A stretch of DNA of 57,360 bases, taken from NCBI GenBank assembly GCA_017624955.1, contig JAGAMA010000022.1:1-57360 (forward strand). Reading direction: 5' to 3'. Positions 466-57,188 of the stretch are shown in pieces (positions within the stretch are counted from its first letter, which is position 1; every line of letters begins with the position of its first letter). This DNA is from Alistipes sp. GTDB taxonomy: Bacteria; Bacteroidota; Bacteroidia; Bacteroidales; Rikenellaceae. The position numbers were made by a program, and so were the translations under genes. The notes beneath the pieces are model-generated. The model had not been told where the DNA came from and did no database searches. It saw nothing but the letters and a program-made list of their open reading frames with translations.

Positions 466-1518
466 ATGAAAGAGCAGATTTTAGGATTACTCCGCTCGGT
501 GGTTCATCCCGAGATAGGACAAGATATAGTAACAAGCGGCCTGGTGGAGCAGGTGGCTGCTTCCGAGGCGGCCATTACCGTGTCGGTGCGCTTTCCGAAG
601 AGCCGCGACCCCTTTGCCGTGAAGATTAAGAATCAGGCCGAGGCTATTCTCAAAGAGCATTTCCCGGAGGCAAAGGTGCTGGTGATGATCAAGGAGGGCG
701 GCCAGAAGAAGCTGCCCGATTTGAAGGAGAAGACGACCACGGGCGATATTACGAAGGTGATTGCCGTGGCTTCGGGCAAGGGCGGTGTCGGAAAATCGAC
801 CGTGGCGGCCAACTTAGCCGTGGCGCTGAAGAATATGGGTTTCCGCGTCGGTCTGCTCGATGCCGATATTTACGGTCCGTCGCAGCCCAAGATGTTCGGC
901 GTGGAGGATTACATCCCCGATGCCGAAGAGGTGGATGGCATGGATCAGATCGTGCCGGCCGTGGCCGAGGAGATTGAGATCATGTCGATCGGCTTCTTTA
1001 TCCGTCCGACCGATGCCCTGCTGTGGCGCGGTGCGATGGCTGTCAATGCGCTCAAGCAGATGATTCATCAGACCAAGTGGGGCCCGCTCGATTTCCTCGT
1101 TTGCGACCTTCCTCCCGGCACGGGCGATATTCACCTCTCGATTATCGGCGAGATGAAGATCAGCGCCGCCGTGATTGTATCTACCCCCCAGCAGGTGGCC
1201 GTAGCGGATGTGGTGCGTGGTGTGGAGATGTTCCGCAACGAGCAGGTTCATATTCCCGTGGCGGGCGTGATTGAGAACATGGCCTACTTTACCCCCGAGG
1301 AGCTGCCCGATAACAAATACTACATCTTCGGCAAGGGGGGTGCCCGCAAGGTGGCCGAGGAGTACGATGTTCCCTTCCTGGGTGAGATTCCGATCGTACA
1401 ATCGATCATGGAGGGTGGCGATACGGGTCGTCCGGGCTCTACGTTCGACGAACGGGTCGAGGAGGTGTATCGTGAAATTGCCGATAAGATTGTTGGCAAC
1501 GTGATGAAAAACGGTTGA
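466..1518 (+). CDS. mrp: Mrp/NBP35-family iron-sulfur cluster carrier ATPase
   Basis: Cytosolic P-loop protein (350 aa) thought to carry Fe-S clusters to apoproteins. Residues 1-90 form a MIP18/DUF59-type domain. The ATPase has a deviant Walker A (GKGGVGKS, residues 104-111), the LDADIYGPSQPKMFG segment and the CDLPPGTGD motif. The C-terminal CxxC that bridges a cluster in many Mrp/ApbC proteins is absent: the matching region reads NMAYFTPEELPDNKYY. As far as I recall, Bacteroidetes homologues share this, so a lineage feature is likelier than damage. It is transcribed alone from the TATATTTG promoter. A two-copy 11-bp repeat straddles its TGA stop. Confidence 0.93.
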   Translation: MKEQILGLLRSVVHPEIGQDIVTSGLVEQVAASEAAITVSVRFPKSRDPFAVKIKNQAEAILKEHFPEAKVLVMIKEGGQKKLPDLKEKTTTGDITKVIAVASGKGGVGKSTVAANLAVALKNMGFRVGLLDADIYGPSQPKMFGVEDYIPDAEEVDGMDQIVPAVAEEIEIMSIGFFIRPTDALLWRGAMAVNALKQMIHQTKWGPLDFLVCDLPPGTGDIHLSIIGEMKISAAVIVSTPQQVAVADVVRGVEMFRNEQVHIPVAGVIENMAYFTPEELPDNKYYIFGKGGARKVAEEYDVPFLGEIPIVQSIMEGGDTGRPGSTFDERVEEVYREIADKIVGNVMKNG

Positions 1519-1536
1519 TAAGCGGTTGATAAACGG
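1510..1536 (+). repeat. 11-bp tandem repeat across the mrp stop codon
   Basis: Two near-identical 11-bp units (AACGGTTGATA, AGCGGTTGATA) and a partial third overlap the last two codons and the TGA of mrp. This is one of several short-period arrays placed on stop codons in this window. Confidence 0.6.
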
Positions 1537-1897
1537 AGAAGATCTTTTAACAGATTTTGCTTGCTTTTTTCATTCGAAGTCGGCTTAATCGAACGAGGAG
1601 AATTTTCCAAATTTATTTTCTAAATTTTATTCATTGTTTATTCGTGCCGTTTAACACAAGGGATGTTTATAAGAAAAGGTTGTTGAGTTGTTGAAAAGAG
1701 TTCTTTACAGTTGTTTATTATTTCGCTTTCGAGTTGATTTTTAATCTCTTATAAAGAATTTTAATCAACAAAGAAAATAAAAAAAGAGGATAACTAAATT
1801 CGAAAAAAGTTCTCAACACCATCAACAGGCTTTATTTTAATTCCTTTTTATTTCTTATTTAAAATTGAATTAAAAAACTATAAAAAATAAAAAGCAA
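1537..1897. other. AT-rich intergenic region between mrp and nadA
   Basis: About 360 bp of strongly AT-rich DNA with no supported gene. It has many TTGTTGA/TCAACA words but no consensus DnaA box (TTATCCACA), no clear terminator for mrp and no clean TAnnTTTG element. It presumably holds the nadA promoter. Confidence 0.6.
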
Positions 1898-2827
1898 ATG
1901 GTTGAAAACCTCCTCTCGAAAATTGCTGACCTGAAAAAGGAGAAGAGAGCCGTGATCCTGGCCCACTACTACTGCAACCCCGAGGTGCAGGCCGTGGCAG
2001 ATTTCTTGGGTGACTCGTTAGCTTTGTCGGTCAAGGCGCAGTCGGTGGATGCCGATGTGATTCTGTTTGCGGGCGTGAACTTCATGGCCGAGACGGCCAA
2101 GGTGTTGTGTCCCGACAAGAGGGTGCTCATTCCGCGACCCGATGCGGGTTGTTCGCTGGCCGAGTCGTGCGATGCCAAGGATTTTGCCGAGTTTAAGAAA
2201 CGCTATCCCGGTCATAAGGTAGTCTCGTATGTCAATACGACCGTTGGTGTGAAGGCATTGACCGACATCTGCTGCACCTCGTCGAATGCCTTGCAGGTGG
2301 TAAATTCGATCCCCGAAGATCAGCCGATCATCTTTGCGCCGGATCGCAACCTGGGTTCCTACATTCAAAAGCTCACGGGGCGCGATAATATCGTGCTTTG
2401 GGATGGTGCCTGCCTGGTGCATGAGGAGTTCTCGTTGGAGGGGTTGAAGGCTTTGAAGGAGGCGCATCCTGCCGCCAAGGTGGTTGTGCATCCCGAGTGT
2501 AAGGCGGCGCTGGTTGAGGAGGCCGATTTTGTGGGCTCTACGGCCGCTATTTTGACCTATTGCGACCAGAGTGAGGCCGAGGAGTTCATCGTGGTCACCG
2601 AGGCCGGCATTTTGGCGGAAATGGAGAAACGCATGCCCCAGAAAAAGTTTATCCCGGCACCGACCGCGGATGCCGCATGTCGTTGCAACGAGTGCAAGGA
2701 GATGAAGAAGGTGACGCTCGAAAACATCATCTCGACGCTCGAAAATCTCTCGCCCGAGGTCCTCATTGACGAGCCGACTCGCAAAGCTGCCGAGAGAGCT
2801 ATACTTAATATGGTTGAAATTAAATAA
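1898..2827 (+). CDS. nadA: Quinolinate synthase A
   Basis: [4Fe-4S] enzyme of de novo NAD synthesis that condenses iminoaspartate with dihydroxyacetone phosphate to quinolinate. At 309 aa it has the normal length of the compact NadA form. Visible family segments are the N-terminal LAHYYCNPEVQ, PDAGCSLAESC, DICCTSSNA, the HPEC segment near residue 190, and AACRCNECK near residue 265. Conserved cysteines in these segments would supply the cluster ligands. nadB and nadC are not in the window. The start follows a very AT-rich leader, usual for strongly expressed Bacteroidetes genes. A 9-bp repeat array runs across the stop codon. Confidence 0.96.
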   Translation: MVENLLSKIADLKKEKRAVILAHYYCNPEVQAVADFLGDSLALSVKAQSVDADVILFAGVNFMAETAKVLCPDKRVLIPRPDAGCSLAESCDAKDFAEFKKRYPGHKVVSYVNTTVGVKALTDICCTSSNALQVVNSIPEDQPIIFAPDRNLGSYIQKLTGRDNIVLWDGACLVHEEFSLEGLKALKEAHPAAKVVVHPECKAALVEEADFVGSTAAILTYCDQSEAEEFIVVTEAGILAEMEKRMPQKKFIPAPTADAACRCNECKEMKKVTLENIISTLENLSPEVLIDEPTRKAAERAILNMVEIK

Positions 2828-2940
2828 GGAGATTAAAGAAATTAAAGATATTAAGGAAATTAAAGAAAAACAAAAATAAAAAACAAAAGAAAAACAAATC
2901 TTTAATATCATTAAACTCCTTAAAATCATTAAGTTCATTA
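2816..2940 (+). repeat. 9-bp phased repeat arrays after nadA
   Basis: Units close to GAAATTAAA repeat every 9 bp from 2816 across the nadA TAA to about 2866. After an A-rich spacer a second block of about five 9-bp units of opposite polarity (TCATTAAAC-like) fills 2886-2940. The blocks could pair as a long AT-rich hairpin. The second block ends just before the start of the S46 peptidase gene. Confidence 0.65.
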
Positions 2941-2956
2941 TAAAAAAAACAACAAT

Positions 2957-5083
2957 ATGAAGAGACTTATTTTATCGCTTTGTGCCGCCTTTGTAGCCCT
3001 GACGGCTACGGCCGATGAGGGTATGTGGCTGCTGCCCTACCTGAAGAAGATGAACCAGAAGGATATGCGCGAGAAAGGCTTCAAGCTCTCGGCCGAGGAT
3101 GTCTATTCGATGAACAAATCCTCGCTCAAGGATGCCATCATTATCTTTGGTGGCGGTTGTACGGGTGAGATCGTTTCGTCGGAGGGTCTTATCTTCACGA
3201 ACCACCACTGCGGCTTTGGTTCGATTCAGTCGCTCTCGTCGGTTGAGCATGACTACCTCAAGGATGGCTTCTGGGCGCGCAACCACCAGGAGGAGCTGCC
3301 CGCTCCGGGTCTGAAGGTGCGTTTCATCCGCCACATCCTCGATGTAACGCCCGAGATCGTGGGTAATGTACCCTCGATTGCTTCGGAGGAGGAGTATCAG
3401 CGCATCACGGGCGAGAATAAGAAGGCCCTGATCGAGGAGCTGCAGAAGAAGTACGAGGGTATGGATGTGATTATCCCCGCCTTCTTCGGTAACAACCAGT
3501 TCTTCGCCTTTATGATGGAGACTTACTCGGATGTTCGTTTGGTAGGTACGCCGCCGCAGTCGATCGGTAAGTTTGGTGGCGAGACCGACAACTGGATGTG
3601 GCCGCGCCATACGGGCGACTTCTCGATTTTCCGTGTCTATGCCGACGAGAACAACCGCCCGGCCGAGTATTCGCCCAACAACACCCCCTATCGTGCCGAG
3701 AAGTACCTCAAAGTAAACATCGAGGGTGTCAAGGAGGGAGATTTTGCGATGGTGATGGGCTTCCCCGGTTCTACGACGCGCTACATGACCTCGTACGAGA
3801 TCGACTACATGCTCTCGACCGACAACCCGCAGCGTATCTCGGTGCGTGGTGCACGTCAGGAGATCCTGGCCGAGGATATGGCAGCGAGCGACAAGGTACG
3901 CATTCAGTACGCTTCGAAATATGCTTCGTCGTCGAACTATTGGAAGAATTCGATCGGTATGTCGCAGGCCGTAACGAAGCTCAACGTGAAGGGCAAGAAG
4001 GAGGCTCAGGAGCAGTCGTTCCAGGCGTGGGCTGATCAGAATACGCTGCCCGAGGAGGGCTACATCGATGCCCTGCCGAAGATTAAGGATTATGTCGAGA
4101 AGTCGGCACCTGCCCGCAAGGATCTGCAGTATATCCAGGAGTCGATGATGCGTGCCATCGAGCTCTTGTCACTCGGTAGCGTATTGACCGATGGTCAGGG
4201 CGTGAAGAAGGAGGTAGATGCCACGAAGCTGATGGCCTATGCCAACCGCATCTACAAGGATTACAACGAGCCGACGGATCGCCGCGTAGCAAAGAAGATG
4301 CTTCAGATGGCGCGTAAAAACATGACTACGCTCCCTTCGTTCTATGCCGAGATTATCGACAAGGAGTTTGGTGGCGATATCAACAAATATGTCGATTATC
4401 TGTATGACAATACGGCCGTTGCATCGCCCGAGAAGTTGGAGGCACTGCTCAAGGATTACTCGGTGGAGAAGGCCGAGCAGGATCCCGTTGTTCCCTTCTT
4501 TAAGTCCGTCATGGAGCTGGCCGGTAAGCTACGCAAGGAGGCATCGGCACACACGCTGCTCTACGCCGAGGGTCACCGCAAATACATTGCCGGTCTGATG
4601 AAGCAGCAGCCCGACAAGGCGTGGGCTTCGGATGCCAACTTCACGATTCGTTGCACCTATGGAAATGTACTTCCCTACACCCCCGCCGATGGTATTCGTT
4701 ACAACTACTACACGACGTTGAAGGGTGTGATGGAGAAGGAGGATCCGAAGAATCCGATTGAGTTTACGGTACCCGAAAAGCTCAAGGATCTCTACCGCGC
4801 TGCCGACTATGGTCGCTATGCCAACAAGAAGGGTGAGCTGGTAACCTGCTTCCTGGCGAACCTCGATATTACGGGTGGTAACTCGGGTTCGCCTGTACTG
4901 AATAAGCGTGGCGAGCTGATCGGTTTGGCCTTCGATGGCAACTGGGAGGCGATGTCGGGTGATGTAGCCTTCGAGCCGGAGTTGCAGCGTATGATTGCCG
5001 TGGATGTACGCTATGTACTCTTCATCATCGACAAGTTTGCCGGTCAGCAGTGGCTGATCGACGAGATGGATATTGTAGAATAA
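2957..5083 (+). CDS. S46-family dipeptidyl-peptidase, DPP7-like
   Basis: Secreted serine exopeptidase (708 aa) that releases dipeptides in the periplasm. A signal peptide covers about residues 1-19. Catalytic triad: His in NHHCG (82-86), Asp221 in HTGDF, and Ser643 in GGNSGSP. The residue 18 after the serine, in FDGNW, is glycine. In Porphyromonas enzymes glycine here marks DPP7 (hydrophobic P1) and arginine marks DPP11 (acidic P1), so DPP7-like specificity is inferred. It sits alone between nadA and metG, and the metG promoter starts right after it. Length fits the family. Confidence 0.92.
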   Translation: MKRLILSLCAAFVALTATADEGMWLLPYLKKMNQKDMREKGFKLSAEDVYSMNKSSLKDAIIIFGGGCTGEIVSSEGLIFTNHHCGFGSIQSLSSVEHDYLKDGFWARNHQEELPAPGLKVRFIRHILDVTPEIVGNVPSIASEEEYQRITGENKKALIEELQKKYEGMDVIIPAFFGNNQFFAFMMETYSDVRLVGTPPQSIGKFGGETDNWMWPRHTGDFSIFRVYADENNRPAEYSPNNTPYRAEKYLKVNIEGVKEGDFAMVMGFPGSTTRYMTSYEIDYMLSTDNPQRISVRGARQEILAEDMAASDKVRIQYASKYASSSNYWKNSIGMSQAVTKLNVKGKKEAQEQSFQAWADQNTLPEEGYIDALPKIKDYVEKSAPARKDLQYIQESMMRAIELLSLGSVLTDGQGVKKEVDATKLMAYANRIYKDYNEPTDRRVAKKMLQMARKNMTTLPSFYAEIIDKEFGGDINKYVDYLYDNTAVASPEKLEALLKDYSVEKAEQDPVVPFFKSVMELAGKLRKEASAHTLLYAEGHRKYIAGLMKQQPDKAWASDANFTIRCTYGNVLPYTPADGIRYNYYTTLKGVMEKEDPKNPIEFTVPEKLKDLYRAADYGRYANKKGELVTCFLANLDITGGNSGSPVLNKRGELIGLAFDGNWEAMSGDVAFEPELQRMIAVDVRYVLFIIDKFAGQQWLIDEMDIVE

Positions 5084-5107
5084 TTTTTTAATCTACGATT
5101 AAAACAC

Positions 5108-5115: not shown

Positions 5116-5144
5116 CACCATTCAAATTCAAAACAGCTTAAAAC

Positions 5145-7195: not shown

Positions 7196-8221
7196 ATGCA
7201 AACGGAAGAGAGGGAGTGGTCGGAGCTTAGCTTCGACTACTACACGACGGACTATAACATCCGTTACAGCTACCGACCCGATCGCGGCTGGAGCGAGATG
7301 CAACTCTCTGAGGATGAGTTTTTACCCGTTCCTCTGGCTGCTGCATGTCTGCACTATGGATCGTCGCTTTTCGAGGGGCTGAAGGCCTTTCGAGGTGCCG
7401 ATGGTAAGATTCGAATCTTCCGCCTGGAGGATACGGTCGAGCGCCTGCAGTCGTCGGCCCGCAGATTGTGTCTGCCCGTTCCGACCCGCATGATGATTAT
7501 CGAGGCCTGTACGGAGGTGGTGCGTAAGAACCTGCGCCACCTGCCCCCCTATGGCACGGGAGCAGCGATGTACCTGCGACCCGTTGAGATAGGTACTTCG
7601 ACCAGCTTTGGTGTGACCCCTTCGGCCAATGCCCTGTTTGTAGTATTCTGCTCGCCGGTCGGTCCCTACTTTAAGGAGGGTATTCGTCCGATTCAGGTGG
7701 CTGTGGATCGTGAGCAGGATCGTGTTTCGGCCAACGGTACGGGCGATGTGAAGATTGGCGCTAACTATGCAGCCAGCCTCCTACCCTACCAGCATGCCCA
7801 CGAAATGGGTTTCCAGAGCGTGCTTTTCCTCGATCCTAAGGAGCACAAATACCTTGACGAGTGCGTAGCGGCCAATTTCTTTGCCATCCGAGATGGTAAG
7901 TATATCACGCCCAAATCCTCGACGATTCTCCCCTCGATTACCAATAAGAGCCTTAAGCAGCTCGCCTTGGATATGGGGTTGGAGGTTGAGGAGCGCCAAA
8001 TCCCCGTTGATGAGTTGGCCACCTTTGAGGAGTGCGGATGTTGTGGTACGGGCGCTATCATCGCCCCGATCAGCGAGATTTACGACATGCAGACCATGAA
8101 GAGCTATTTCTATGGTCGTGAGGTCGGCCCGGTCAGCTTAGCGCTCTATCATAAGCTCCAGGACATTCAGTATGGTCTGGCCGAGGATATTCACGGCTGG
8201 AATACCATTGTTGAAGAGTAA
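7196..8221 (+). CDS. ilvE: Branched-chain amino-acid aminotransferase
   Basis: PLP-dependent class IV aminotransferase (341 aa) interconverting Leu/Ile/Val and their 2-oxo acids. It belongs to the longer, eukaryote-like BCAT group: GSSLFEGLKAFRG near residues 55-70 and Lys186 in GDVKIGANYAAS as the Schiff-base lysine. The CGCCGT stretch near residue 280 contains the CxxC-like cysteine pair typical of that group. It is the second gene of the metG operon. A 7-bp repeat array runs across its stop codon, then a strong terminator follows. Confidence 0.95.
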   Translation: MQTEEREWSELSFDYYTTDYNIRYSYRPDRGWSEMQLSEDEFLPVPLAAACLHYGSSLFEGLKAFRGADGKIRIFRLEDTVERLQSSARRLCLPVPTRMMIIEACTEVVRKNLRHLPPYGTGAAMYLRPVEIGTSTSFGVTPSANALFVVFCSPVGPYFKEGIRPIQVAVDREQDRVSANGTGDVKIGANYAASLLPYQHAHEMGFQSVLFLDPKEHKYLDECVAANFFAIRDGKYITPKSSTILPSITNKSLKQLALDMGLEVEERQIPVDELATFEECGCCGTGAIIAPISEIYDMQTMKSYFYGREVGPVSLALYHKLQDIQYGLAEDIHGWNTIVEE

Positions 8222-8250
8222 AGAGCGAAGAGCGAAGAGGAAAGAAAGAG
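8213..8250 (+). repeat. 7-bp purine repeat array across the ilvE stop codon
   Basis: About five units close to AAGAGCG repeat every 7 bp, starting in the last two codons of ilvE and including TAA. The array runs straight into the terminator stem. The same unit family occurs at the ends of murE, galE and glsB, always purine-rich in the mRNA sense. Confidence 0.75.
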
Positions 8251-8285
8251 AGGATTGTTCCACGGGGAACAATCCTCTTTGTTTT
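8249..8285 (+). terminator. Terminator of metG-ilvE
   Basis: Perfect 13-bp stem (8249-8261 with 8266-8278), loop ACGG, then TTTGTTTT. The stem tip and loop include the 16-mer TGTTCCACGGGGAACA, repeated exactly 47 bp further on. Confidence 0.85.
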
Positions 8286-17037: not shown

Positions 17038-17169
17038 TTTTTCGATTTTATAGGGCAGATTTTGCACCTTACTTGTCCGGCCTGAATGGGAAATACGCTT
17101 AGTATGTCCCATCCAGGCCGAACTGCGGCGGCACAAAATCTGCTCCTCTAAAATCAAAAAACGGTCGTG
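17038..17169 (-). repeat. 132-bp dispersed structured repeat, copy 1
   Basis: It starts directly after the patatin stop codon. It is about 89% identical over 132 bp (14 mismatches, no gap by eye) to 26731-26862, and a diverged third copy lies at about 22848-22965. On the minus strand an outer stem GATTTTA...GCAGATTTTG/CAAAATCTGC...TAAAATC encloses an inner hairpin of about 18 bp (CGGCCTG/CAGGCCG, ATGGGA/TCCCAT, ATAC/GTAT). A reading frame with FLILEEQIL is open in all copies but has no credible start. Confidence 0.75.
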
Positions 17170-17188: not shown

Positions 17189-17222
17189 AACTTTCAACTT
17201 TTCAACTTTTCAACTTTTCCCT

Positions 17223-17225: not shown

Positions 17226-20480
<3,255 letters not shown>

Positions 20481-22828: not shown

Positions 22829-22847
22829 TTCAATTTTGATTTTTGAA

Positions 22848-22965
22848 TTTGTATGCGGCACCTTTCGCCCCTCCTTGCCGTGCCAATCGGTCACATACGC
22901 TTTAGTATGCTCCCTCGTGCCACGACTGCGGAGTCGCAAAATCTGCTCGCCTAAAATCCAAAATT
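22848..22965 (-). repeat. Dispersed structured repeat, copy 3 (diverged)
   Basis: It shares with copies 1 and 2 the right end (GCAAAATCTGCTC, then CTAAAATC), the apical hairpin CATAC-loop-GTATG and an open minus-strand frame (FWILGEQIL versus FLILEEQIL). The left arm has diverged. It sits between pgk and the M13 peptidase gene and is flanked on both sides by AATTTTG-type 7-bp units (22831-22850 and 22989-23009). Confidence 0.55.
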
Positions 22966-24364: not shown

Positions 24365-24399
24365 CAATTTTGAATTCTAAATTCTAAATCATGAATTTA
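24365..24399 (-). repeat. 7-bp repeat array at the original stop codon of the ABC permease
   Basis: Exactly five 7-bp units (35 bp) of the AATTTTG/TAGAATT family begin with the TAA at 24397-24399 in the sense of the permease gene. The array marks the ancestral stop codon, not the premature one at 24541. Confidence 0.65.
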
Positions 24400-24540: not shown

Positions 24541-25713
24541 CTAGGTGGGGATGTCGTAGGGGATGCGGGCCATCATCACAATCGGCGAGGTGAGGGGGAT
24601 GACCGAGAACCAGAAGGCAAGCTTCGAGGTGGGGTCGTTGATCACGGCCAGCATCATCAGCAGACCTAAGATGATCGGCAGCGTGATCGGGGTCTGCAGC
24701 TGCGAGGCATCCTGCACATTATCCACGGCCGAACCCACGGCGGCAAACATCGCGGCGTAGAGCAGGAAACCGCCAAAGACGAAGAGAATCATCGAGACGA
24801 AGATCTTCATCAGGTAACCCGTGTCGGTCATGGCCGCTACGGCCTGCAACATTTCGGGGTCGAGGTCGGCACCCTCGATGGCCGCACCCTGCTCGATAGC
24901 CGTAGCCGAGGCCATCACATCCTCGGGCATCAGGTGGGGCACTACGAGCGTACCCATGCCGAGAATCAGCACACCCCAAATAATCACCTGCAACACCGCT
25001 ACCGAGCCTACGCCCAGGATCTTACCCATCATCAGATCGAAGGGCTTGACCGAAGATACCATCACCTCCAGCACGCGGTTGTTCTTCTCCTCGATGACCG
25101 ACTGCATCACCATCGAGCCGTAGATCAACAGGAACATGTAGAGCACAAAGGCGAGGATGTAGCCGATGGCCGTGGCGACAATCGAGGATTGCGCCTCGTT
25201 GGTTGTGGCCTCCTGCGACTTATCGTTGCGGAAGGTCTGCATCGATACCGAGGTCTCGATCTCGTCGAGAATCTCCTGCAGGTTCACGATGTCGTAGTGT
25301 TTGAGCTTCTCCTCCTCCAGGATATCCTCAATCTGTGAGCAGATATCCATCTCGAAGGTCATCGAGGTCGAGGAGTTGGCATAGAGCTGCACCCCTTTGG
25401 GGTTGTCGAGGATGTTGGGGGCGATGTAGAGAATCGCAAAGAGGTCGGTGCGTGTGCGACGCGCCTCCTCGAGGGGAATGTCGAGCGTTTCGAAGTGCAT
25501 CGTCTCGTTGCTTTGGAGGCGATCGCCGATGAGGTTGCTTGCATCCACCACGCCGATCTGCTTCTGGTCACCCTGCGAGAAGGACATGATGAGGGCCGGA
25601 GCCGCCATGAGGGCAATCATCAGCACGGGCATCAGGATCGTCGTGATGATGAAGCTCTTTTTGCGGACGCGCTCGTTAAACTCGCGCCCGATGATAAGAC
25701 CAATTTTATTCAT
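24541..25713 (-). CDS. ABC-2 type transporter permease, NatB-like, truncated by an amber codon
   Basis: The translated part is 390 aa and partners the ATPase encoded 12 nt upstream as a NatAB-type exporter. A first membrane helix (about 20-45) is followed by an extracytoplasmic domain (about 46-175). A helix bundle (about 178-385) includes GYILAFVLYMFLLIYGSMV and ends at MARIPYDIPT. The family normally continues into one more helix, which is present in frame after the TAG (24397-24540). The product therefore probably lacks its last membrane helix and may be non-functional. The base sequence should be confirmed before calling it a pseudogene. Confidence 0.88.
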   Translation of the reverse strand: MNKIGLIIGREFNERVRKKSFIITTILMPVLMIALMAAPALIMSFSQGDQKQIGVVDASNLIGDRLQSNETMHFETLDIPLEEARRTRTDLFAILYIAPNILDNPKGVQLYANSSTSMTFEMDICSQIEDILEEEKLKHYDIVNLQEILDEIETSVSMQTFRNDKSQEATTNEAQSSIVATAIGYILAFVLYMFLLIYGSMVMQSVIEEKNNRVLEVMVSSVKPFDLMMGKILGVGSVAVLQVIIWGVLILGMGTLVVPHLMPEDVMASATAIEQGAAIEGADLDPEMLQAVAAMTDTGYLMKIFVSMILFVFGGFLLYAAMFAAVGSAVDNVQDASQLQTPITLPIILGLLMMLAVINDPTSKLAFWFSVIPLTSPIVMMARIPYDIPT

Positions 25714-26730: not shown

Positions 26731-26862
26731 TTTTTCGATTTTATAGGGCATATTTTGCACCTTCCTTGTTCGGTCTGAATGGGCAGTACGCCAAGTACAG
26801 CCCATCCAACCCGAACTGCGGCGGCACAAAATCTGCTCCTCTAAAATCAAAAAATGGTCGTG
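26731..26862 (-). repeat. 132-bp dispersed structured repeat, copy 2
   Basis: Same length as copy 1 (17038-17169) with 14 mismatches. In the inner hairpin two pairs differ by compensatory changes: A-T to C-G in the GGGA/TCCC region (GGGC/GCCC here), and A-T to G-C nearer the loop. It includes the left arm of the terminator that follows copy 1 (ATGGTCGTG) but not the right arm. It lies between glsB and the ATPase gene. Confidence 0.75.
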
Positions 26863-26870
26863 GTACTGAT

Positions 26871-26930
26871 GCCCCCCTTAGTCACCTTTAGCCTCCTTTA
26901 GTTACCTTTAGCTCCCTTTAGTCCCCCTTA
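26871..26930 (-). repeat. Six-unit 10-bp phased repeat array
   Basis: Six consecutive 10-mers fit GYNNCCYTTA on the plus strand with no slippage (for example GTCACCTTTA and GCCTCCTTTA). In the sense of glsB they read TAAAGG-type, purine-rich. The array lies beyond the glsB terminator. The same family is at 34211-34270 with the opposite orientation relative to the upstream gene. Confidence 0.75.
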
Positions 26931-26970
26931 TAAAAAATGAAGGAGATTAAAGAACCACTCCTTAATCTCC
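26930..26970 (-). terminator. Terminator of glsA-glsB
   Basis: GGAGATTAA/TTAATCTCC stem (26942-26950 with 26962-26970), with TTCATTTTTT following on the minus strand, 12 bp after the glsB stop codon. Confidence 0.75.
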
Positions 26971-26981
26971 TCAAAATCTCT

Positions 26982-27033
26982 TTATCTTCTTTTTCTCTCC
27001 TCTCTCCTCTTCGCTCTTTGCTCTCTCCTCTTT
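26982..27033 (-). repeat. 7-bp purine repeat array inside the 3' end of glsB
   Basis: In glsB sense, AAGAGGA/GAGAGCA/AAGAGCG-like units repeat every 7 bp for about 50 bp up to and including the TAA. This is the unit family found just after the stop codons of ilvE, murE and galE, but here it is translated. Confidence 0.7.
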
Positions 27034-32735: not shown

Positions 32736-34181
32736 ATGAAAGAACTTTCAACCTTGCTGCATGGTGTGCAGGTCGTAGCCCGCGAGGGTGCTGCGGAGGT
32801 GCAGGTTGCGGAGCTTGTCTTCGACTCGCGCCGCGTGGTTGCAGGCAGTTGCTTCTTTGCCGTGCGCGGTACGGCGACGGATGGTCACCGCTTTATCCCG
32901 ATGGCCCTGGAGCAGGGCGCTGTGGCTGTGGTGTGCGAGGAGTTGCCTGCTAAGATCGATCCCCGCGTGGCGTATGTCGTGGTGGAGGATAGCGAGCAGA
33001 CGATGGCCTGCATGGCCTCGGCCTTCTACGACGATCCGAGCCGTGAGCTGAAGCTGGTGGGCATCACCGGCACGAACGGCAAGACCACTACCGCTACGCT
33101 CCTCTATGAGTTGGTGCGCAAGTTGGGCTACCGTGCTGGATTGATCTCGACCGTGGTCTATAAGATCGACGACAGGGAGATCCCCTCGACCCATACGACC
33201 CCCGACACGATTCGCCTGAACAAGATGTTGCGCGAGATGGTCGATGCGGGGTGTGACTACTGCTTTATGGAGTGTTCGTCGCACGCCATCGTGCAGCGCC
33301 GCACCTACGGACTGCACTTTGCGGGAGGCCTCTTTTCGAACCTCACGCACGACCACCTCGACTACCACAAGACCTTTGCCGACTACCTGAAGGCCAAGAA
33401 GGGCTTCTTCGATGCCCTGCCCAAGAGCGCCTTTGCCCTCACGAACGGGGACGATAGGAACGGTGCGGTGATGGTGCAGAACTGCCGCGCCAAGGTGAAA
33501 AACTACTCGCTTCGCTCGATGGCCGACTACCGTTGCAAGATCGTGGAGATGCACCTCGACGGGATGTTGTTGCAGGTGGACGGGCGCGAGCTGTGGACCT
33601 CGCTGACGGGTCGCTTCAACGCCTCGAACCTCTTGGTCGTGTATGCAGCGGCTGTCGAGTTGGGCTTTGAGAAGGAGGAGGTGCTGACGGCACTGAGCCT
33701 GCTGCAACCCGTGAGCGGTCGTTTCGAGTGCATCCGATCCCGTGGGGGTGTGATCGGTGTGGTCGATTACGCCCATACGCCCGATGCGTTGGAGAATGTG
33801 TTGCAGACGATCGACGAGATTCGCTCGGAGCAGAGCTCGCTCATCGTGGTCTGCGGTTGTGGCGGTAATCGTGACCGTGAGAAGCGACCCGAGATGGCCC
33901 GCATCGCCGCATCGCACGCTACAACGACGATTCTCACCTCCGACAACCCGCGCCACGAAGATCCCGAGGCGATTCTCGATGAGATGGAGCAGGGAATGCC
34001 GCAGGGGGCGCGTTACCTGCGCATCACGGATCGCGCGGCGGCCATTCGTACGGCCGTCATGCTTGCCAAGGAGGGCGATGTGGTGCTCGTGGCCGGCAAG
34101 GGACACGAGAATTACCAGATCATCGGCGATGAGAAGCATCCGTTCGATGACCGCGAAGAGTTACGCAAAGCCTTTGAATAA
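32736..34181 (+). CDS. murE: UDP-MurNAc-L-Ala-D-Glu ligase, meso-diaminopimelate type
   Basis: Adds the third residue of the stem peptide in the cytosol. The ATG at 32736 (481 aa) is preferred; a GTG at 32718 would add six residues. The P-loop is GITGTNGKTTT near 108-118. The DNPR motif at 403-406 marks binding of meso-diaminopimelate rather than lysine, so the murein should be DAP-type. The central and C-terminal Mur-ligase domains are complete. A three-part repeat region separates it from mraY, interrupting an otherwise compact cluster. Confidence 0.96.
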   Translation: MKELSTLLHGVQVVAREGAAEVQVAELVFDSRRVVAGSCFFAVRGTATDGHRFIPMALEQGAVAVVCEELPAKIDPRVAYVVVEDSEQTMACMASAFYDDPSRELKLVGITGTNGKTTTATLLYELVRKLGYRAGLISTVVYKIDDREIPSTHTTPDTIRLNKMLREMVDAGCDYCFMECSSHAIVQRRTYGLHFAGGLFSNLTHDHLDYHKTFADYLKAKKGFFDALPKSAFALTNGDDRNGAVMVQNCRAKVKNYSLRSMADYRCKIVEMHLDGMLLQVDGRELWTSLTGRFNASNLLVVYAAAVELGFEKEEVLTALSLLQPVSGRFECIRSRGGVIGVVDYAHTPDALENVLQTIDEIRSEQSSLIVVCGCGGNRDREKRPEMARIAASHATTTILTSDNPRHEDPEAILDEMEQGMPQGARYLRITDRAAAIRTAVMLAKEGDVVLVAGKGHENYQIIGDEKHPFDDREELRKAFE

Positions 34182-34306
34182 GAGGAAAGAGCAAAGAGGA
34201 AAGAGAGTTGAAAAGCTTTAGCTGCCTTTAGTCACCTTTAGCAACCCTTAACTCCCCTTAGCCCCCCTAATTTTGAATTTTGAATGCTAAATTTTGAATT
34301 TGTAAT
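34179..34306 (+). repeat. Composite repeat region filling the murE-mraY gap
   Basis: Almost the whole 125-bp gap consists of phased short repeats. Four 7-bp AAGAGNA units start at the murE TAA (34179-34208) and end in GTTGAAAAG. Six 10-bp GYNNCCYTTA units follow (34211-34270), then five 7-bp AATTTTG-like units up to the mraY ATG (34270-34306). Each family also occurs alone elsewhere in the window. Confidence 0.75.
34268..34275 (+). promoter_or_regulatory. Possible promoter -7 element for mraY
   Basis: TAATTTTG matches TAnnTTTG, 31 bp before the mraY start, at the junction of the 10-bp and 7-bp arrays. The AT-rich array makes a chance match likely. Confidence 0.3.
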
Positions 34307-51962: not shown

Positions 51963-51974
51963 GCTGCGCTAAGA

Positions 51975-52547: not shown

Positions 52548-52580
52548 GGTGTATGAAAATGTTTAAAAAGTTAAACCACC

Positions 52581-52625
52581 GACGGTTCTCAGCATAATTT
52601 CGGGGAATTATGCCCCAATACCGTC
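52581..52625 (-). promoter_or_regulatory. Structured 5' leader of rplY
   Basis: In the rplY mRNA an outer stem GACGGT/ACCGTC (52620-52625 with 52581-52586) encloses an inner perfect stem GCATAATT/AATTATGC (52606-52613 with 52592-52599). It lies between the promoter and the start codon, with no T-run after it, so regulation through translation or protein binding is likelier than attenuation. I do not recognise it as a known leader. Confidence 0.5.
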
Positions 52626-52637
52626 TGTTTGGGAGTG

Positions 52638-52645
52638 CAAAAGTA
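52638..52645 (-). promoter_or_regulatory. Promoter -7 element for rplY-pth
   Basis: TACTTTTG on the minus strand, 90 bp before the rplY start codon, giving room for the structured leader. Confidence 0.6.
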
Positions 52646-52690
52646 CAACGAAGAATCGGAAAATCAAAATTATTTGATAAAGAATGAGCT

Positions 52691-52734
52691 ACAAGGGCGG
52701 AAAAGGCGGCGAAAGGTGACTAAGGGAAGCTAAC
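52691..52734 (+). repeat. 10-bp phased repeats upstream of the sigma-factor gene
   Basis: About four units of the TAAAGGNNRC family (for example GAAAGGTGAC) repeat every 10 bp, followed by CTTTTCAACTTTT, the complement of the AAAAGTTG unit found after lacZ. The array lies between the divergent rplY and sigma promoters. Confidence 0.6.
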
Positions 52735-52753
52735 GCTTTTCAACTTTTTTTGC

Positions 52754-52761
52754 TAATTTTG
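52754..52761 (+). promoter_or_regulatory. Promoter -7 element for the ECF sigma gene
   Basis: TAATTTTG matches TAnnTTTG, 35 bp before the start codon at 52797. It resembles a housekeeping promoter; no clear ECF-type autoregulatory motif is seen. Confidence 0.5.
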
Positions 52762-52796
52762 TAACCAAACGGCCATTGGGTGGTCTAATCCGATAG

Positions 52797-53656: not shown

Positions 53657-53721
53657 AAATTTAGAATTTAGAATTCAAAATTAAGAATTATTTTAGTGGG
53701 CGCAGTAGGCTTAGTAGGCCC
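53654..53721 (+). repeat. 7-bp array at a stop codon followed by a 9-bp array
   Basis: TAGAATT-like units repeat about every 7 bp from the TAG stop of the small membrane protein to about 53696, then three 9-bp units AGTRGGCNY fill 53695-53721. The 7-bp family is the one found after the ABC permease and before mraY. Confidence 0.6.
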
Positions 53722-53826
53722 GGTTTGTAACCTTTTTCGCACTTTGCAGTCTAACCCATTGAACGCAAAACCGGTAGCGCAAGAAATGAGAAAACAAAAG
53801 TAAAACCTTAAAAAAAACAAATAATT

Positions 53827-54189
53827 ATGTTTGATGTAATCTTGACATTGGTTGTCGCTGTGGCGATTTATAAAATTGTCGAATTGTCGCTGACTCGTTT
53901 CGAGCGACTGAAGGCGCTACAAAAACTCGAAGGGCAGGATCTGGTGGAGTATCTGGGTAAGGCTGCACCGCAGGTGGATTCACTGAAACAGACGATGTGG
54001 TGGCTGATGCGTATTGGCAGTATTGTACTCGGTGTCGGTGTCGGCTTTTTGCAGTCGTTTTGGGTGGCGAATCTTCCCGAAGGTCCCTTTGGCGATACGC
54101 CGGAAATAATGCTTGTGGGCGGTATGATGCTCGGCGGTGCTTTGTTCCTGATTATCGAACTCTTCATCGAGCGCAAACTCCGCAAATAG
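53827..54189 (+). CDS. Small membrane protein (DUF6249-like)
   Basis: 120 aa with a membrane-skimming or single N-terminal helix (about 3-20), an amphipathic charged stretch (about 24-55) and two further membrane helices (about 58-78 and 94-113) ending in a basic RKLRK. The topology and its position behind an ECF sigma gene resemble DUF6249 proteins common in Bacteroidetes. It may belong to the regulon or be part of the sigma-control module. The 170-nt gap upstream contains the 7-bp and 9-bp arrays. Function unknown. Confidence 0.75.
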   Translation: MFDVILTLVVAVAIYKIVELSLTRFERLKALQKLEGQDLVEYLGKAAPQVDSLKQTMWWLMRIGSIVLGVGVGFLQSFWVANLPEGPFGDTPEIMLVGGMMLGGALFLIIELFIERKLRK

Positions 54190-54214
54190 ACAAGAACCAA
54201 CCACTTTTAACAAC

Positions 54215-54249
54215 AAGCGAGGGTGTCCCGTTATAGGACACCCTCGCTT
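54215..54249. terminator. Bidirectional terminator between the DUF6249-like gene and galE
   Basis: Perfect 14-bp stem AAGCGAGGGTGTCC/GGACACCCTCGCTT with a 7-nt loop. On the galE side it is reached directly after the 7-bp repeat array. Confidence 0.85.
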
Positions 54250-54284
54250 ATCTTTGCTCTTTGCTCTTCACTCTTTCCTCTTTA
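54250..54284 (-). repeat. 7-bp purine repeat array starting at the galE stop codon
   Basis: Exactly five 7-bp units (TAAAGAG, GAAAGAG, TGAAGAG and two CAAAGA-type units) begin with the TAA of galE and end where the terminator stem begins. Confidence 0.75.
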
Positions 54285-55313
54285 TTCAATGCCTCTTACA
54301 TGCTTCTCCCAGGCCCAGGCCGAGCGGAGCGTGTCGTCGAGGTTGCGCGTAGCCTTCCAGCCCAGCTCCTCGTTCGCCAGGGTCGGGTCGGCCCAGATGG
54401 CGATGATATCGCCCTCGCGGCGGTCGGCAATCTTGTAGTTGAGTTTCAGCGAGTTGGCCTCCTCGAAGCGGTGCACCAGCTCCAGCACCGAGACACCGTT
54501 GCCCGTGCCGACATTGAAGACCTCGTAATTCTGCTTGTTCTTCCCCTCGATCATACGGGTAATGGCTACGACATGGGCGCGCGCCAGATCCACCACATCG
54601 ATATAGTCGCGGATGTTCGAGCCGTCGGGGGTGGGGTAGTCGTTGCCGAATACCGAGAGGCACTCGCGGATGCCGGCAGCGGTCTGCGTCACGAAGGGGA
54701 CAAGGTTCTGCGGTACACCGCGCGGCAGCTCACCGATGAGGGCCGAGGGGTGTGCACCGATGGGGTTGAAGTAGCGCAGGGCGATACCCTTCAAATCGCC
54801 ATAGGCACGCACCGAGTCGCGCAGGATATCCTCGCACATGGTCTTCGTATTGCCGTAGGGCGAGGTGGCCGGCTTGCGGGGCGTTTGCTCCGTTACGGGC
54901 TGCTTGTCGGGCTCGCCATAGACCGTACACGACGACGAGAAGACGATGTTGTGACGGCCGTAGGTGCGCATCAGCTCGATGATGTTCATCAGCGACGTAA
55001 GGTTGTTGCGGTAGTACTCCAACGGCTTCTGCACCGATTCGCCCACAGCCTTGTAGGCGGCAAAGTGAATCACCGAGTCGAACTCATATTTTTCGAACAG
55101 CTCCTTGGCCAAACGCTCCTTGTCGCAGCAATCGACCTCGACAAAGGGAACCTCTACGCCCGTAATTTTGCGGACACCCTCGACAGCGCCCAGGTCGCTA
55201 TTTGAAAGATTGTCGGCAATCACTACATCGTAGCCCGCCTCGATGAGCTCCACAGCCGTGTGCGATCCGATATACCCCGCGCCACCGCTGACCAATACAC
55301 AATGCTTCTTCAT
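54282..55313 (-). CDS. galE: UDP-glucose 4-epimerase
   Basis: Extended short-chain dehydrogenase (343 aa) interconverting UDP-glucose and UDP-galactose with bound NAD. GGAGYIGSHTAVELIEAGYD (about 11-30) is the NAD motif. Catalytic Tyr153 and Lys157 lie in the YGNTK element, preceded by SSSCTVYG near 125. Length normal. It is transcribed alone and provides UDP-galactose for glycan synthesis or uses galactose released by enzymes such as the GH2 enzyme. Its TATCTTTG promoter lies back-to-back with that of kbl. Confidence 0.97.
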   Translation of the reverse strand: MKKHCVLVSGGAGYIGSHTAVELIEAGYDVVIADNLSNSDLGAVEGVRKITGVEVPFVEVDCCDKERLAKELFEKYEFDSVIHFAAYKAVGESVQKPLEYYRNNLTSLMNIIELMRTYGRHNIVFSSSCTVYGEPDKQPVTEQTPRKPATSPYGNTKTMCEDILRDSVRAYGDLKGIALRYFNPIGAHPSALIGELPRGVPQNLVPFVTQTAAGIRECLSVFGNDYPTPDGSNIRDYIDVVDLARAHVVAITRMIEGKNKQNYEVFNVGTGNGVSVLELVHRFEEANSLKLNYKIADRREGDIIAIWADPTLANEELGWKATRNLDDTLRSAWAWEKHVRGIE

Positions 55314-55349
55314 GATACGAAAATGATGGAAAAATGTTTATTTCTACCG

Positions 55350-55357
55350 CAAAGATA
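55350..55357 (-). promoter_or_regulatory. Promoter -7 element for galE
   Basis: TATCTTTG on the minus strand, 36 bp before the start codon. Confidence 0.6.
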
Positions 55358-55380
55358 GTGGAAAATCAAAACAAAGTCAT

Positions 55381-55388
55381 TATATTTG
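55381..55388 (+). promoter_or_regulatory. Promoter -7 element for kbl-lrp
   Basis: TATATTTG, 46 bp before the kbl start codon, 23 bp from the divergent galE element. Confidence 0.6.
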
Positions 55389-55434
55389 CTAACAATTTGA
55401 CAGAAAAAATCAATCAAACATAACAATTCGAGTC

Positions 55435-56622
55435 ATGTACACAAAAATGCAAGCTCATTTGCAGCACGAATTGGACGAAATCCGTGCCGCAGGTCTCTAC
55501 AAAACCGAGCGCGTAATTTGCTCGCCGCAGCGTGCCGCAATCGAGGTGGCAGGCCGCGAGGTGCTGAACTTCTGCGCCAACAACTACCTGGGTCTTTCGG
55601 ACAATAAGCGCCTGGTGGAGGCCGCCAAGCGTGCCATGGACGAGCGCGGCTACGGCATGTCGTCCGTGCGCTTCATCTGCGGCTGCCAGGATATGCACAA
55701 GGAGCTTGAGAAGGCTATTTCGAACTACTTCGGCACGGAGGATACGATCCTCTACGCCGCCTGCTTCGATGCCAACGGTGGTGTCTTCGAACCGCTCTTC
55801 ACGGAGCAGGATGCCATCATCTCGGATGCCCTGAACCACGCCTCGATCATCGACGGTGTGCGCCTCTGCAAGGCGGTGCGCTACCGCTACGCCAATGCCG
55901 ACATGGCCGACCTCGAGGAGTGCCTTAAGAAGGCCCAGGCACAGCGCTTCCGCATCATCTGCACCGACGGTGTCTTCTCGATGGACGGCAACGCCGCTCC
56001 GCTGGATAAGATCGTCGAGCTGGCCGAGAAATATGATGCCATGGTGATGGTCGATGAGTGCCACTCGGCAGGTGTACTCGGCAAGACGGGTCGCGGTATC
56101 ACGGAGCTGTACGACCTGCGCGGTAAGGTGGAGATCCTGACCGGTACGCTCGGCAAGGCCTTCGGTGGTGCCGTGGGCGGCTTCACGACGGGTAAGAAGG
56201 AGATTATCGACATGCTGCGCCAGCGTTCGCGCCCCTACCTCTTCTCGAACTCGCTGCCCCCCGCAGTCGTAGGTGCCGGTATCGAGATGTTCAAGATGCT
56301 GGAGGAGAGCGATGCCCTGCATGACAAGCTGGTGGAGAATGTGGCCTACTTCCGCGAGAAGATGATGGCTGCAGGCTTCGATATCAAGCCCACGCAGTCG
56401 GCCATCTGCGCCGTGATGCTCTACGATGCCAAGCTCTCGCAGGATATGGCTGCCAAGCTGCAGGAGGAGGGTGTATTCGTAACGGGCTTCTACTACCCCG
56501 TAGTACCGAAGGGTCAGGCCCGCATCCGCGTACAGGTTTCGGCCGGCCACGAGCGCGAGCACCTCGATCGTTGCATCGAGGCCTTCGTGAAGGTAGGCAA
56601 GGAGCTGGGCGTACTGAAATAA
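55435..56622 (+). CDS. kbl: Glycine C-acetyltransferase (2-amino-3-ketobutyrate CoA ligase)
   Basis: PLP-dependent alpha-oxoamine synthase (395 aa) that cleaves 2-amino-3-ketobutyrate with CoA to glycine and acetyl-CoA in threonine breakdown. Close to E. coli Kbl throughout (VLNFCANNYLGL, SSVRFICG, SDALNHASIIDGVRLC, RQRSRPYLFSNSL). PLP lysine is Lys241 in TGTLGKAFGG. The related serine palmitoyltransferase of Bacteroidetes is the main alternative, but the near-complete match to Kbl motifs argues against it. tdh is not in the window. An Lrp-family regulator follows 44 nt later on the same strand. Confidence 0.93.
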   Translation: MYTKMQAHLQHELDEIRAAGLYKTERVICSPQRAAIEVAGREVLNFCANNYLGLSDNKRLVEAAKRAMDERGYGMSSVRFICGCQDMHKELEKAISNYFGTEDTILYAACFDANGGVFEPLFTEQDAIISDALNHASIIDGVRLCKAVRYRYANADMADLEECLKKAQAQRFRIICTDGVFSMDGNAAPLDKIVELAEKYDAMVMVDECHSAGVLGKTGRGITELYDLRGKVEILTGTLGKAFGGAVGGFTTGKKEIIDMLRQRSRPYLFSNSLPPAVVGAGIEMFKMLEESDALHDKLVENVAYFREKMMAAGFDIKPTQSAICAVMLYDAKLSQDMAAKLQEEGVFVTGFYYPVVPKGQARIRVQVSAGHEREHLDRCIEAFVKVGKELGVLK

Positions 56623-56666
56623 GCGTACACACACAACACAATCCATAACACCCAAACACGCTTTTT

Positions 56667-57161
56667 ATGATGAAAACGATCAATCTGGATGCCATTGACC
56701 GCAAGATCCTGAAATTCCTGGTTAAGAATGCCCGTATGCCCTTCCTGGAGATCGCCCGCGAGTGCGGTATCTCGGGCGCGGCTATTCACCAGCGCATCCA
56801 TAAGCTCACCGAGGCCGGTGTGATCCAGGGCAGCTACATGGTAGTCAATCCCAAGATGCTGGGCTTTGATGTCTGCGCCCATATCAACATTTCGCTCAAG
56901 GATCCGCAGCAGCTGCAGCAGGTCATCGAAGAGCTGCAGGAGATTCCCGAGATTGTGGAGGCTCACTTCATTACCGGTAAGGGCAGTATCCAGGTTAAGC
57001 TCTACTGCCTCGATAACGAGCACCTGATGCACACGGTCTATGACAAGGTGCTGCGCATCCACGGCATTTCGGCCACGGAGACCATCATTTCGCTGCGCGA
57101 GGTCTTCCGTCGTCCGCTCGCTGTGGAGTATATCGACGACCTACCCGCCAAGCGCCGCTAA
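56667..57161 (+). CDS. Lrp/AsnC-family transcriptional regulator
   Basis: 164 aa. An N-terminal winged helix-turn-helix (about 6-62, LDAIDRKILKFLVKNARMPFLEIARECGIS) is followed by a RAM/AsnC ligand-binding domain (about 70-150). Such proteins sense amino acids and control their metabolism. Lying directly behind kbl, it may adjust threonine/glycine breakdown and its own synthesis. The last residues are basic. No separate promoter is obvious, so co-transcription with kbl is likely. Confidence 0.92.
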   Translation: MMKTINLDAIDRKILKFLVKNARMPFLEIARECGISGAAIHQRIHKLTEAGVIQGSYMVVNPKMLGFDVCAHINISLKDPQQLQQVIEELQEIPEIVEAHFITGKGSIQVKLYCLDNEHLMHTVYDKVLRIHGISATETIISLREVFRRPLAVEYIDDLPAKRR

Positions 57162-57188
57162 GCGAGCCGAGCCAAGATAAGATAAGCG
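57159..57188 (+). repeat. 5-bp repeat array starting at the lrp stop codon
   Basis: Thirty bases starting with the TAA fit six 5-bp units (TAAGC, GAGCC twice, AAGAT twice, AAGCG), overlapping the start of the terminator stem. Confidence 0.55.

Follow-up and report, generated by a model that had tools for sequence, protein, structure and literature searches.

This analysis concerns short tandem arrays at the ends of open reading frames (ORFs) in an Alistipes-like (Rikenellaceae) genome, here called G000. The window, meaning the whole stretch of 57,360 nucleotides that was analyzed, is contig C11 of this genome, which comprises 2.1 Mb (2,106 kb) in 42 contigs and is 93.5% complete. A preliminary description of the window had listed arrays at the stop codons of ten genes, and arrays were found at all ten places. 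The arrays are real and widespread in G000, as judged from an 857-kb sample. The explanation we lean towards, with slightly more than even confidence, is that the arrays are arms, intact or vestigial, of short intergenic blocks able to form hairpins, that these arms turn over and recombine, and that they are tolerated just outside ORFs. As part of the same joint explanation, held with the same slight lean, some of the blocks would be built around a terminator and sited between ORF ends. On this view the sites resemble minor hot spots of recombination, and a novel signal at the stop codon need not be assumed.

The survey of G000 covered 857 kb of 2,106 kb (~41%), with 655 called genes. Arrays were sought at periods of 5–12 (match +1, mismatch -2) and were counted at a score of at least 12. 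Genes were called with a purpose-written caller, which short genes can escape, and unit families were assigned by hand-written patterns. The contigs surveyed were already known for repeat matches, which may have inflated the densities as such but is not expected to affect how the spacer classes compare. As a null, each spacer was shuffled ten times, and a smaller sample of coding sequence (CDS) was shuffled once. The main comparison genomes were G103 (RGIG1820), G102 (SIG171) and G101 (RGIG7716), and the nearest named relatives of G000 by murE are metagenome-assembled genomes (MAGs) labeled Alistipes sp. or Rikenellaceae bacterium.

Position and architecture of the arrays

In G000, an array was present within 60 bp of 57 of the 255 stops that face a spacer of at least 80 bp, compared with 13 of the 291 starts (p = 2e-10). 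The corresponding numbers were 54 of 198 stops and 12 of 208 starts in G103 (p = 2e-9), and 10 of 151 and 3 of 183 in G102, which is far poorer in arrays. Among the spacer classes of G000, arrays were densest between convergent genes (47 arrays in 78 spacers, 2.60 per kb), followed by tandem spacers of at least 80 bp (65 in 153, 1.21 per kb), divergent spacers (10 in 74, 0.46 per kb) and tandem spacers below 80 bp (3 in 293, 0.43 per kb), while CDS held 13 arrays in 712 kb (0.018 per kb) and shuffled spacers gave at most 0.5 arrays per class. The division of tandem spacers at 80 bp is partly circular, because the arrays themselves lengthen the spacers. In G103, 13 arrays were found in 49 divergent spacers, with eight spacers affected. 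The excess at stops over starts, short tandem spacers and shuffled spacers that had been predicted from the window was thus borne out. Of the 57 stop-associated arrays in G000, 40 start between -20 and +9 of the stop. The description of the arrays as placed exactly on the stop codon is loose at glsB, where the array lies in the coding end. The period was 7 in 50 of 125 arrays in G000 and 8 to 12 in the remainder.

Read outward, the main units with a period of 7 are AATTAAG/AATTTAG, AGTTGAA and AAGAGNR, and those with longer periods are GTTACANN (8), ATTAAAGAN and CAGTNGGCN (9), and CTAAAGGNNR (10). Unit families recur at unlinked genes, as had been noticed in the window. The outward strand has more G than C in 51 of 57 stop arrays (4 reverse, 2 ties) and 12 of 13 start arrays in G000. 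Over three genomes, the figures are 107 of 121 at stops (7 reverse, 7 ties) and 23 of 28 at starts (4 reverse, 1 tie). The tandem heptamers are mostly intergenic, close to ORF ends and fixed in polarity, as are those of the Xanthomonas/Nostoc type. Recognition of the stop codon, one of the possibilities raised for the window, was rejected as the main explanation on account of mirror-image arrays upstream of starts and in some divergent spacers, where several of them make up an inverted block; the stop codon is probably not a recognized signal. A transcription-coupled strand bias was likewise rejected, since the polarity on the sense strand reverses between stops and starts.

A single array was detected in 60 of the 87 spacers with arrays in G000, 42 of 84 in G103 and 17 of 19 in G102. 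Where a spacer contained at least two arrays, a purine array was located to the left of a pyrimidine array in 23 of 27 cases (G000) and 36 of 42 cases (G103). These blocks follow the order purine 7-mers, purine 9- or 10-mers, center, pyrimidine 10-mers, pyrimidine 7-mers, with parts often missing. For consecutive arrays on the + strand of G000 and G103, the succession was purine–pyrimidine in 61 pairs and pyrimidine–purine in 8, with 23 purine–purine and 27 pyrimidine–pyrimidine pairs. When a 7-mer array and a 9- or 10-mer array of the same orientation were neighbors, the 7-mer was the outer one in 20 of 21 cases, and the median distance to the nearest ORF end was 3 bp for 7-mers and 75 bp for 10-mers. 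Single arrays were directed away from the nearest ORF in 46 of 60 spacers in G000 and 35 of 42 in G103, and would be parts of inverted blocks. A purine array after the left ORF and a pyrimidine array before the right ORF, whatever the strand of the genes, give the polarity that had been seen in the window. Measured relative to their own shuffles, array regions showed the stronger folding, with medians of -8.7 vs -4.2 kcal per 100 nt in G000, -5.5 vs -3.2 in G103 and -5.6 vs -4.3 in G102.

Orientation of the AGTTG element

An all-against-all comparison of spacers yielded an element consisting of a ~110-bp core with AGTTGAA arms, the AGTTG element. The core contains a two-part terminator-like hairpin with A- and T-tracts. 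Among 12 copies, compensatory changes were found in 7 of 22 base pairs, against a mean of 0.8 in shuffled controls, and none of 500 shuffles reached 7; by inspection, these changes stem from three of the 12 sequences. Matches were found in five of the 12 genomes searched (G000, G103, G102, G101 and G114) and in none of the other seven. From among the matches listed, 52 copies were analyzed, 40 of them from G000, G103, G102 and G101; this set omits five matches that were partial or at a contig edge, together with the weaker ones and every match in G114. Forty-eight of the 52 copies lie between convergent genes, three in tandem spacers and one at a contig end, and in several copies the arrays span the spacer from stop to stop.

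Comparison of the flanks between genomes gave 43 pairs, which are not independent of each other, with the core in the same orientation in 19 and inverted in 24. Loci were grouped by their flank matches, excluding an ambiguous six-copy group around G000:C3, and both core orientations occurred among relatives at 11 of the 16 unambiguous orthologous loci. Of the 52 cores, 51 could be extracted. At five loci the inverted cores were 0.88–0.99 identical (best 0.95–0.99), whereas non-orthologous pairs had a median identity of 0.80 and a 90th percentile of 0.87. Because these inverted pairs exceed the 90th percentile, the core appears to have been turned, rather than replaced, at the five loci. Orthologs in the same orientation were also more similar than non-orthologs (p = 4e-6). 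Reversal is confined to the hairpin loop at one locus (G102:C3@19441 vs G103:C15@362426). In a separate comparison of syntenic spacers of all families, reversal improved the alignment in 7 of 44 cases where both sides carried arrays, in 0 of 19 where one side did, and in 0 of 81 array-free cases. A segment present in both orientations, as in an inverton, was thus found for the AGTTG family only, and between species.

The flanks of the AGTTG element at G000:C3:29369-29475 match different copies elsewhere, namely two in G101 and one on G103:C8, and the copy on G103:C16 is linked through G101 and G102, as if there were a rearrangement breakpoint at the element.

Arrays in the window and their turnover

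The arrays and blocks in the window are as follows:

197..229, + strand: 10-bp TAAAGG array upstream of mrp, beyond the ten places first listed
1505..1536, + strand: 11-bp array at the end of mrp, real and outside the recurring families
2824..2941, + strand: inverted block at the end of nadA, with a 9-bp purine array (2825-2868), an A-rich middle and a complementary 9-bp array (2898-2940)
8214..8239, + strand: AAGAGNR 7-bp array spanning the ilvE stop, then a terminator-like hairpin at ~8250-8277 (placed by eye)
17192..17219, - strand: AAAAGTTG 8-bp array past the lacZ stop, then a terminator-like hairpin
24366..24389, - strand: AATTTAG 7-bp array of the permease gene, 7 bp beyond a stop at 24397-24399
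26871..27031, - strand: block at the end of glsB, with an AAGAG array in the coding end (26994-27031), a hairpin of 9-bp units (26941-26971) and a 10-bp CTAAAGG array (26871-26923)
34180..34285, + strand: block in the murE/mraY spacer, with AAGAG (34180-34205), 10-bp CCTTTAG (34225-34268) and AATTTTG (34269-34285)
52709..52754, no strand: block of degenerate 9/10-bp units between divergent genes (spacer 52548-52796), under the array threshold
53658..53719, + strand: AATTTAG 7-bp array past the stop of a small protein, then weak 9-bp units
54251..54283, - strand: AAGAGNR 7-bp array spanning the galE stop, then a terminator-like hairpin, its stem conserved in G102 and G114
57163..57186, + strand: 5-bp array at the end of lrp, with threshold score

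In NCBIfam, NadA, IlvE, GlsB, MurE and GalE score above their curated cut-offs, and the β-galactosidase (lacZ) falls marginally under its own. The mrp product (ApbC-like) and the Lrp/AsnC regulator are clear relatives under cut-off, the permease is a weak match, and the small protein has no match. Scans of the window with Rfam (gathering thresholds) and for tRNAs gave no matches.

Eight of the ten sites first listed belong to recurring families: nadA (9 bp), ilvE, glsB, murE and galE (AAGAGNR, 7 bp), lacZ (AAAAGTTG, 8 bp), and the permease and the small protein (AATTTAG, 7 bp). The claim of recurrence does not extend to the mrp 11-mer and the lrp 5-mer. In both G102 and G114 the former has roughly two imperfect units; G103 has none. 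The latter was not seen at the orthologous stops of G102, G103 and G114, where G103 has other arrays from 73 bp downstream, and is probably a local or chance feature. The clearest inverted block in the window is that of nadA, with arms of 43 nt that are 74% complementary. The array of the permease had been assigned to its original stop, which fits provided that the frame is read through the TAG at 24541-24543; the frame of the ABC permease then gains 47 codons and ends at the stop at 24397-24399. This in-frame TAG could be a sequencing error, a nonsense change or have another cause. At glsB, the AAGAG array (within 26982-27031) lies inside the coding end and, being free of stops in its frame, became part of the protein, where it is translated as the tail RREQRAKRREERKRR. 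The GlsB tail has a repeating EQRAKRK-like stretch in G103 and is different in G102.

Family changes at orthologous stops are seen directly at several of these loci. The ilvE stop has the AAGAGNR family in G103 as well and no array in G102. In place of the AAAAGTTG array, the lacZ stop has a 7-bp AAAGTTG array in G102, and AAGAG plus 9-mers in G103. The stop of the small protein has AATTAAG in G102 and CTTAAGG 10-mers in G103, and that of galE has AATTAAG and 9-mers in G102, AATTTAG in G103 and no array in G114. The murE/mraY spacer is 125 bp in G000, 31 bp without arrays in G102, and 178 bp in G103, where a block of like make-up is present. Between G000 and G103 the divergent spacer 52548-52796 aligns at its flanks but differs in the enclosed block, which in G103 is an AAGAG/CTTAAGG inverted block. 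We also observed that the murE/mraY spacer of a different Alistipes MAG (L036) contains about three copies of a ~50-bp repeat.

G000 and G103 were compared at 103 orthologous 3' ends for which at least one of the two genomes has a spacer of 60 bp or more. Of these ends, 62 had no array, 19 had one in a single genome (8 in G000 only, 11 in G103 only) and 22 had one in both. The two arrays belonged to different families at 10 of the 22 shared sites, two of these pairs including an array labeled as "other". Co-occurrence of different families was above chance (p = 8e-4, all spacer types together), suggesting that the sites are predisposed. Between G000 and G102, the numbers were 64 without, 15 one-sided and 10 in both, 4 of them with different families (p = 0.015). 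Of 12 spacers with an array in only one of G103 and G102, 11 were longer with the array, by 75 to 170 bp, and one was shorter. The spacer was clearly longer in 6 of 12 such cases between G000 and G102, the others being similar or shorter, and in 2 of 7 between G000 and G103. Array-free tandem pairs differed by medians of 1, 2 and 3 bp in the three comparisons. Part of the added length consists of other repeats.

At the level of single units, adjacent units were identical in their variable spacers more often than expected in CTAAAGG (25 of 74, 6.2 expected), TTAAGGG (6 of 10, 1.1 expected), GATTAA (13 of 14, 6.4 expected) and CAGT (5 of 22, 0.9 expected). No such sign of local duplication was seen in AAGAG (20 of 80, 19.7 expected) or AATTAA (11 of 23, 10.6 expected). 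If the arrays were simple microsatellites, arising everywhere by slippage and surviving purifying selection mostly in spacers just past stops, with neither an element nor a function involved, then the near absence of arrays from CDS, the local duplication in the first four families, the differences in unit number between orthologs and the single array in most G000 array spacers would all be accounted for. However, plain slippage would not be expected to produce the outward polarity, the nested inverted order or different families at one stop. Moreover, the neighboring units of AAGAG and AATTAA are no more alike than distant ones, and the loci are not independent, as the AGTTG elements have conserved cores in common at unlinked loci. 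We therefore consider slippage and selection an unlikely explanation. The preliminary description had argued that local slippage alone is insufficient and that a repeat-generating process surviving only just past stop codons might be at work. The AGTTG core at unlinked loci and the unit-to-unit randomness of the AAGAG spacers support the first point, and a repeat-generating process tolerated outside ORFs is indeed needed.

Alternative explanations and related repeats

The arrays had been described as leading into terminators. This fits convergent ends, where a terminator-like hairpin was found at 39 of 57 stops with an array and 75 of 129 without. It does not fit tandem ends, where the corresponding numbers were 1 of 21 and 63 of 132 in G000, and 7 of 26 and 33 of 88 in G103. 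Shuffled spacers scored as terminator-like in 15 of 255 and 11 of 198 cases in G000 and G103, respectively. Taken together, the counts at convergent and tandem stops show that the arrays are not simply parts of terminators.

The deficit at tandem stops (8 of 47 vs 96 of 220 in G000 and G103 together) would suit an insulator function, in which C-rich, G-poor RNA read inward from the array loads Rho and stops antisense or read-through transcription from entering the ORF, while the C-poor outward transcript is spared. The predominance of G over C on the outward strand, seen at stop and start arrays alike over the three genomes, agrees with such a function, as does the outward C content of 0–5% in the three most common stop families. 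In G000, convergent stops also carry arrays more often than tandem stops (34 of 102 vs 23 of 153, p = 6e-4). However, this difference was not significant in G103 (26 of 84 vs 28 of 114, p = 0.20), and convergent stops with arrays mostly retain their terminator-like hairpin. The most common stop family, AATTAAG, has only 9% G when read outward, and the inward RNA is thus C-poor. A pyrimidine array is present in the murE/mraY spacer, and the inverted architecture is another explanation of the polarity. For these reasons, Rho insulation seems to us improbable.

A signal at the mRNA 3' end, acting in ribosome clearance, stability or processing, with a conserved position and interchangeable sequence, had also been proposed. 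Array starts cluster around the stop, 40 of 57 of them between -20 and +9, as would be expected of such a signal, and orthologous stops swap families, yet often keep the position. In addition, the hairpin, where present, is farther from stops with arrays than from those without (median 44 vs 24 nt in G000, 55 vs 22 nt in G103). On the other hand, most stops have no array, and presence differs between orthologs (8 in G000 only and 11 in G103 only, of 103). Arrays in mirror orientation also flank some starts, the glsB array is translated, several of the relatives sampled have almost no arrays, and tandem stops with arrays have fewer terminator-like hairpins than others. A 3'-end role is therefore very unlikely in our view.

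We return to the explanation by inverted hairpin-forming blocks. Two nearby inverted arms may pair or recombine during replication, through template switching or inverted-repeat recombination. Exchange between the arms would flip the center, template switching could copy the growth of an array from one arm into the other, and slippage would alter the number of units; copies would spread to new sites by some route. Since neither coding sequence nor promoter regions would tolerate the arrays, these would begin at stop codons, their growth being bounded by the ORF end. The families in the window are presumed to behave like the AGTTG family. A more specific proposal, which we regard as tentative, is that the inverted arrays are recombination arms that repeatedly flip and rebuild small terminator cassettes by replication-coupled hairpin template switching, including copying from arm to arm. 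If so, the arrays at ORF ends would come out symmetric and facing outward, and the like polarity reported for the heptamer repeats of Xanthomonas and Nostoc might have the same origin.

A number of observations weigh against this explanation. In the single-array majority of spacers (60 of 87 in G000), no block is visible. Many blocks carry unlike families in their two arms; the murE block, for example, has mirror polarity but unlike arms, with no inverted repeat of at least 10 nt. The AGTTG core is absent from the window, and no conserved core was found for the AAGAG, AATTAAG and 10-mer families. Three of the 11 AGTTG loci with two orientations lean partly on one flank, several inverted orthologous cores are doubtful at 0.64–0.75 identity, and as a group the inverted orthologs show a modest excess over non-orthologs (p = 0.015). 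Only 4 of the 7 reversed spacers scored above 40, three of them being AGTTG elements, and some inversions could be assembly choices, the genomes compared being mostly MAGs. The lengthening of spacers is clear between G103 and G102, but the two other comparisons gave mixed results. Array-free orthologous spacers, most of them too diverged for placement of the borders, revealed no target-site duplication. No mobilizing enzyme was found: Y1 transposases (PF01797) were absent from 14 of 14 genomes, while 5 of 14 control genomes were positive. On this last ground, mobilization of the RAYT/REPIN kind was rejected.

Abundant heptamer repeats near ORF ends have been known, without a function, in Xanthomonas, Nostoc and Beggiatoaceae, and these repeats are the kin of the G000 arrays. 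The statement that no description of such arrays exists was accordingly too strong. Rehm et al. 2015 (PMC4692102) reported the heptamers GGGNATC and GGGGA(C/T)T in Xanthomonas and Nostoc and found no function for them. In both Xanthomonas and Nostoc, the arrays on the coding strand lie within 50 bp of stops, which some of them overlap, and those on the non-coding strand lie 0–50 bp upstream of starts. They resemble the present arrays in having a variable unit position, in being mostly intergenic and rare between divergent genes, and in varying in length between relatives. In contrast, the present arrays comprise many unrelated families with periods of 7 to 10 and few G-tracts, exchange families at the same site, form nested inverted blocks and, in one family, have an inverted center. 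By inspection, the units of the most common stop families (AATTAAG, AGTTG and AAGAG) have no GGG runs, some 10-mers do, and the G-rich, G-quadruplex-capable units of the Xanthomonas/Nostoc heptamers were not seen. MacGregor 2015 (PMC4679880) described TAACTGA repeats in Beggiatoaceae, Cyanobacteria and some Bacteroidetes, and other heptamer assemblages in Bacteroidetes. These are likewise intergenic heptamer arrays with a patchy phylogenetic spread, but in the main genome of that study they are one family, mostly just upstream of starts, rather than many families at stops.

A search of plasmids across phyla with one AGTTG query gave no match, and the low-complexity filter of BLAST may mask such queries. 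The short tandemly repeated repetitive (STRR) sequences and small dispersed repeats (SDR) of Nostoc (Mazel 1990; Elhai 2008) are reportedly heptamer arrays with embedded small hairpin elements and compensatory stem changes. The organisms differ from ours, and the sequences probably do as well. SDR are mentioned in a 2011 PLoS Genet article (PMC3116915), which treats REPINs as dispersed intergenic inverted pairs with predicted hairpins that accompany RAYT (Y1) transposases. The AGTTG elements have a covarying hairpin and inverted arms and may resemble REPINs in part, but their arms are arrays of 7–10 bp units instead of repetitive extragenic palindromic (REP) sequences, and RAYT (Y1_Tnp, PF01797) is absent from all 14 genomes. 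In the invertons of gut bacteria (PMC11892184), a segment between inverted repeats occurs in both orientations; its counterpart in the AGTTG family is a terminator-like hairpin that lies between convergent genes. The open-access literature searched contained nothing on such Alistipes arrays or on inversion of heptamer-flanked terminators, which is no proof of absence. Inverted nested blocks that swap families and, in one family, have a center occurring both ways round would provide a concrete, testable model for the origin and outward polarity of heptamer repeats. Since the repeats reshape spacers and, at glsB, even a protein tail, they matter for the prediction of operons and terminators.

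The unit families are lineage-specific. The AAGAG pattern had 47 overlapping matches in G000 and none in 17 other genomes sampled from the same genus, and matched 8 of 101 genomes of the taxonomic family. In a second genus, G076 (20), G100 (10) and G088 (7) were well over the backward control, and the single matches in each of four genomes were at control level. The pattern was strong in G103 (143) and G105 (37); another 13 genomes, reached via their murE loci, had few matches or none. Of 61 genomes of the genus, three had the CTAAAGG pattern, and in one of the three it matched only once. Samples of ~40–80 kb contained 0 or 1 arrays in G054, G087, G084, G095, G003, G008 and G020, and three in G013; the stretches of G105 and G076 were mostly picked near AAGAG matches and are thus biased upwards.

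Two other repeats were observed near the arrays. A small-hairpin motif (AAAGTCAAGCNNCCGAAGG-like) lies within or adjoining AAGAG arrays at the murE 3' end of L031 and in the G103:C39 sample near 19754. Separately, a dispersed palindromic repeat of ~130 bp occurs in the window at 17038-17169, 26731-26862 and 22840-22963, the copies being 89% and 72% identical. It lies in spacers, sometimes adjoining arrays, and has many matches in G101, G102, G103 and G114.

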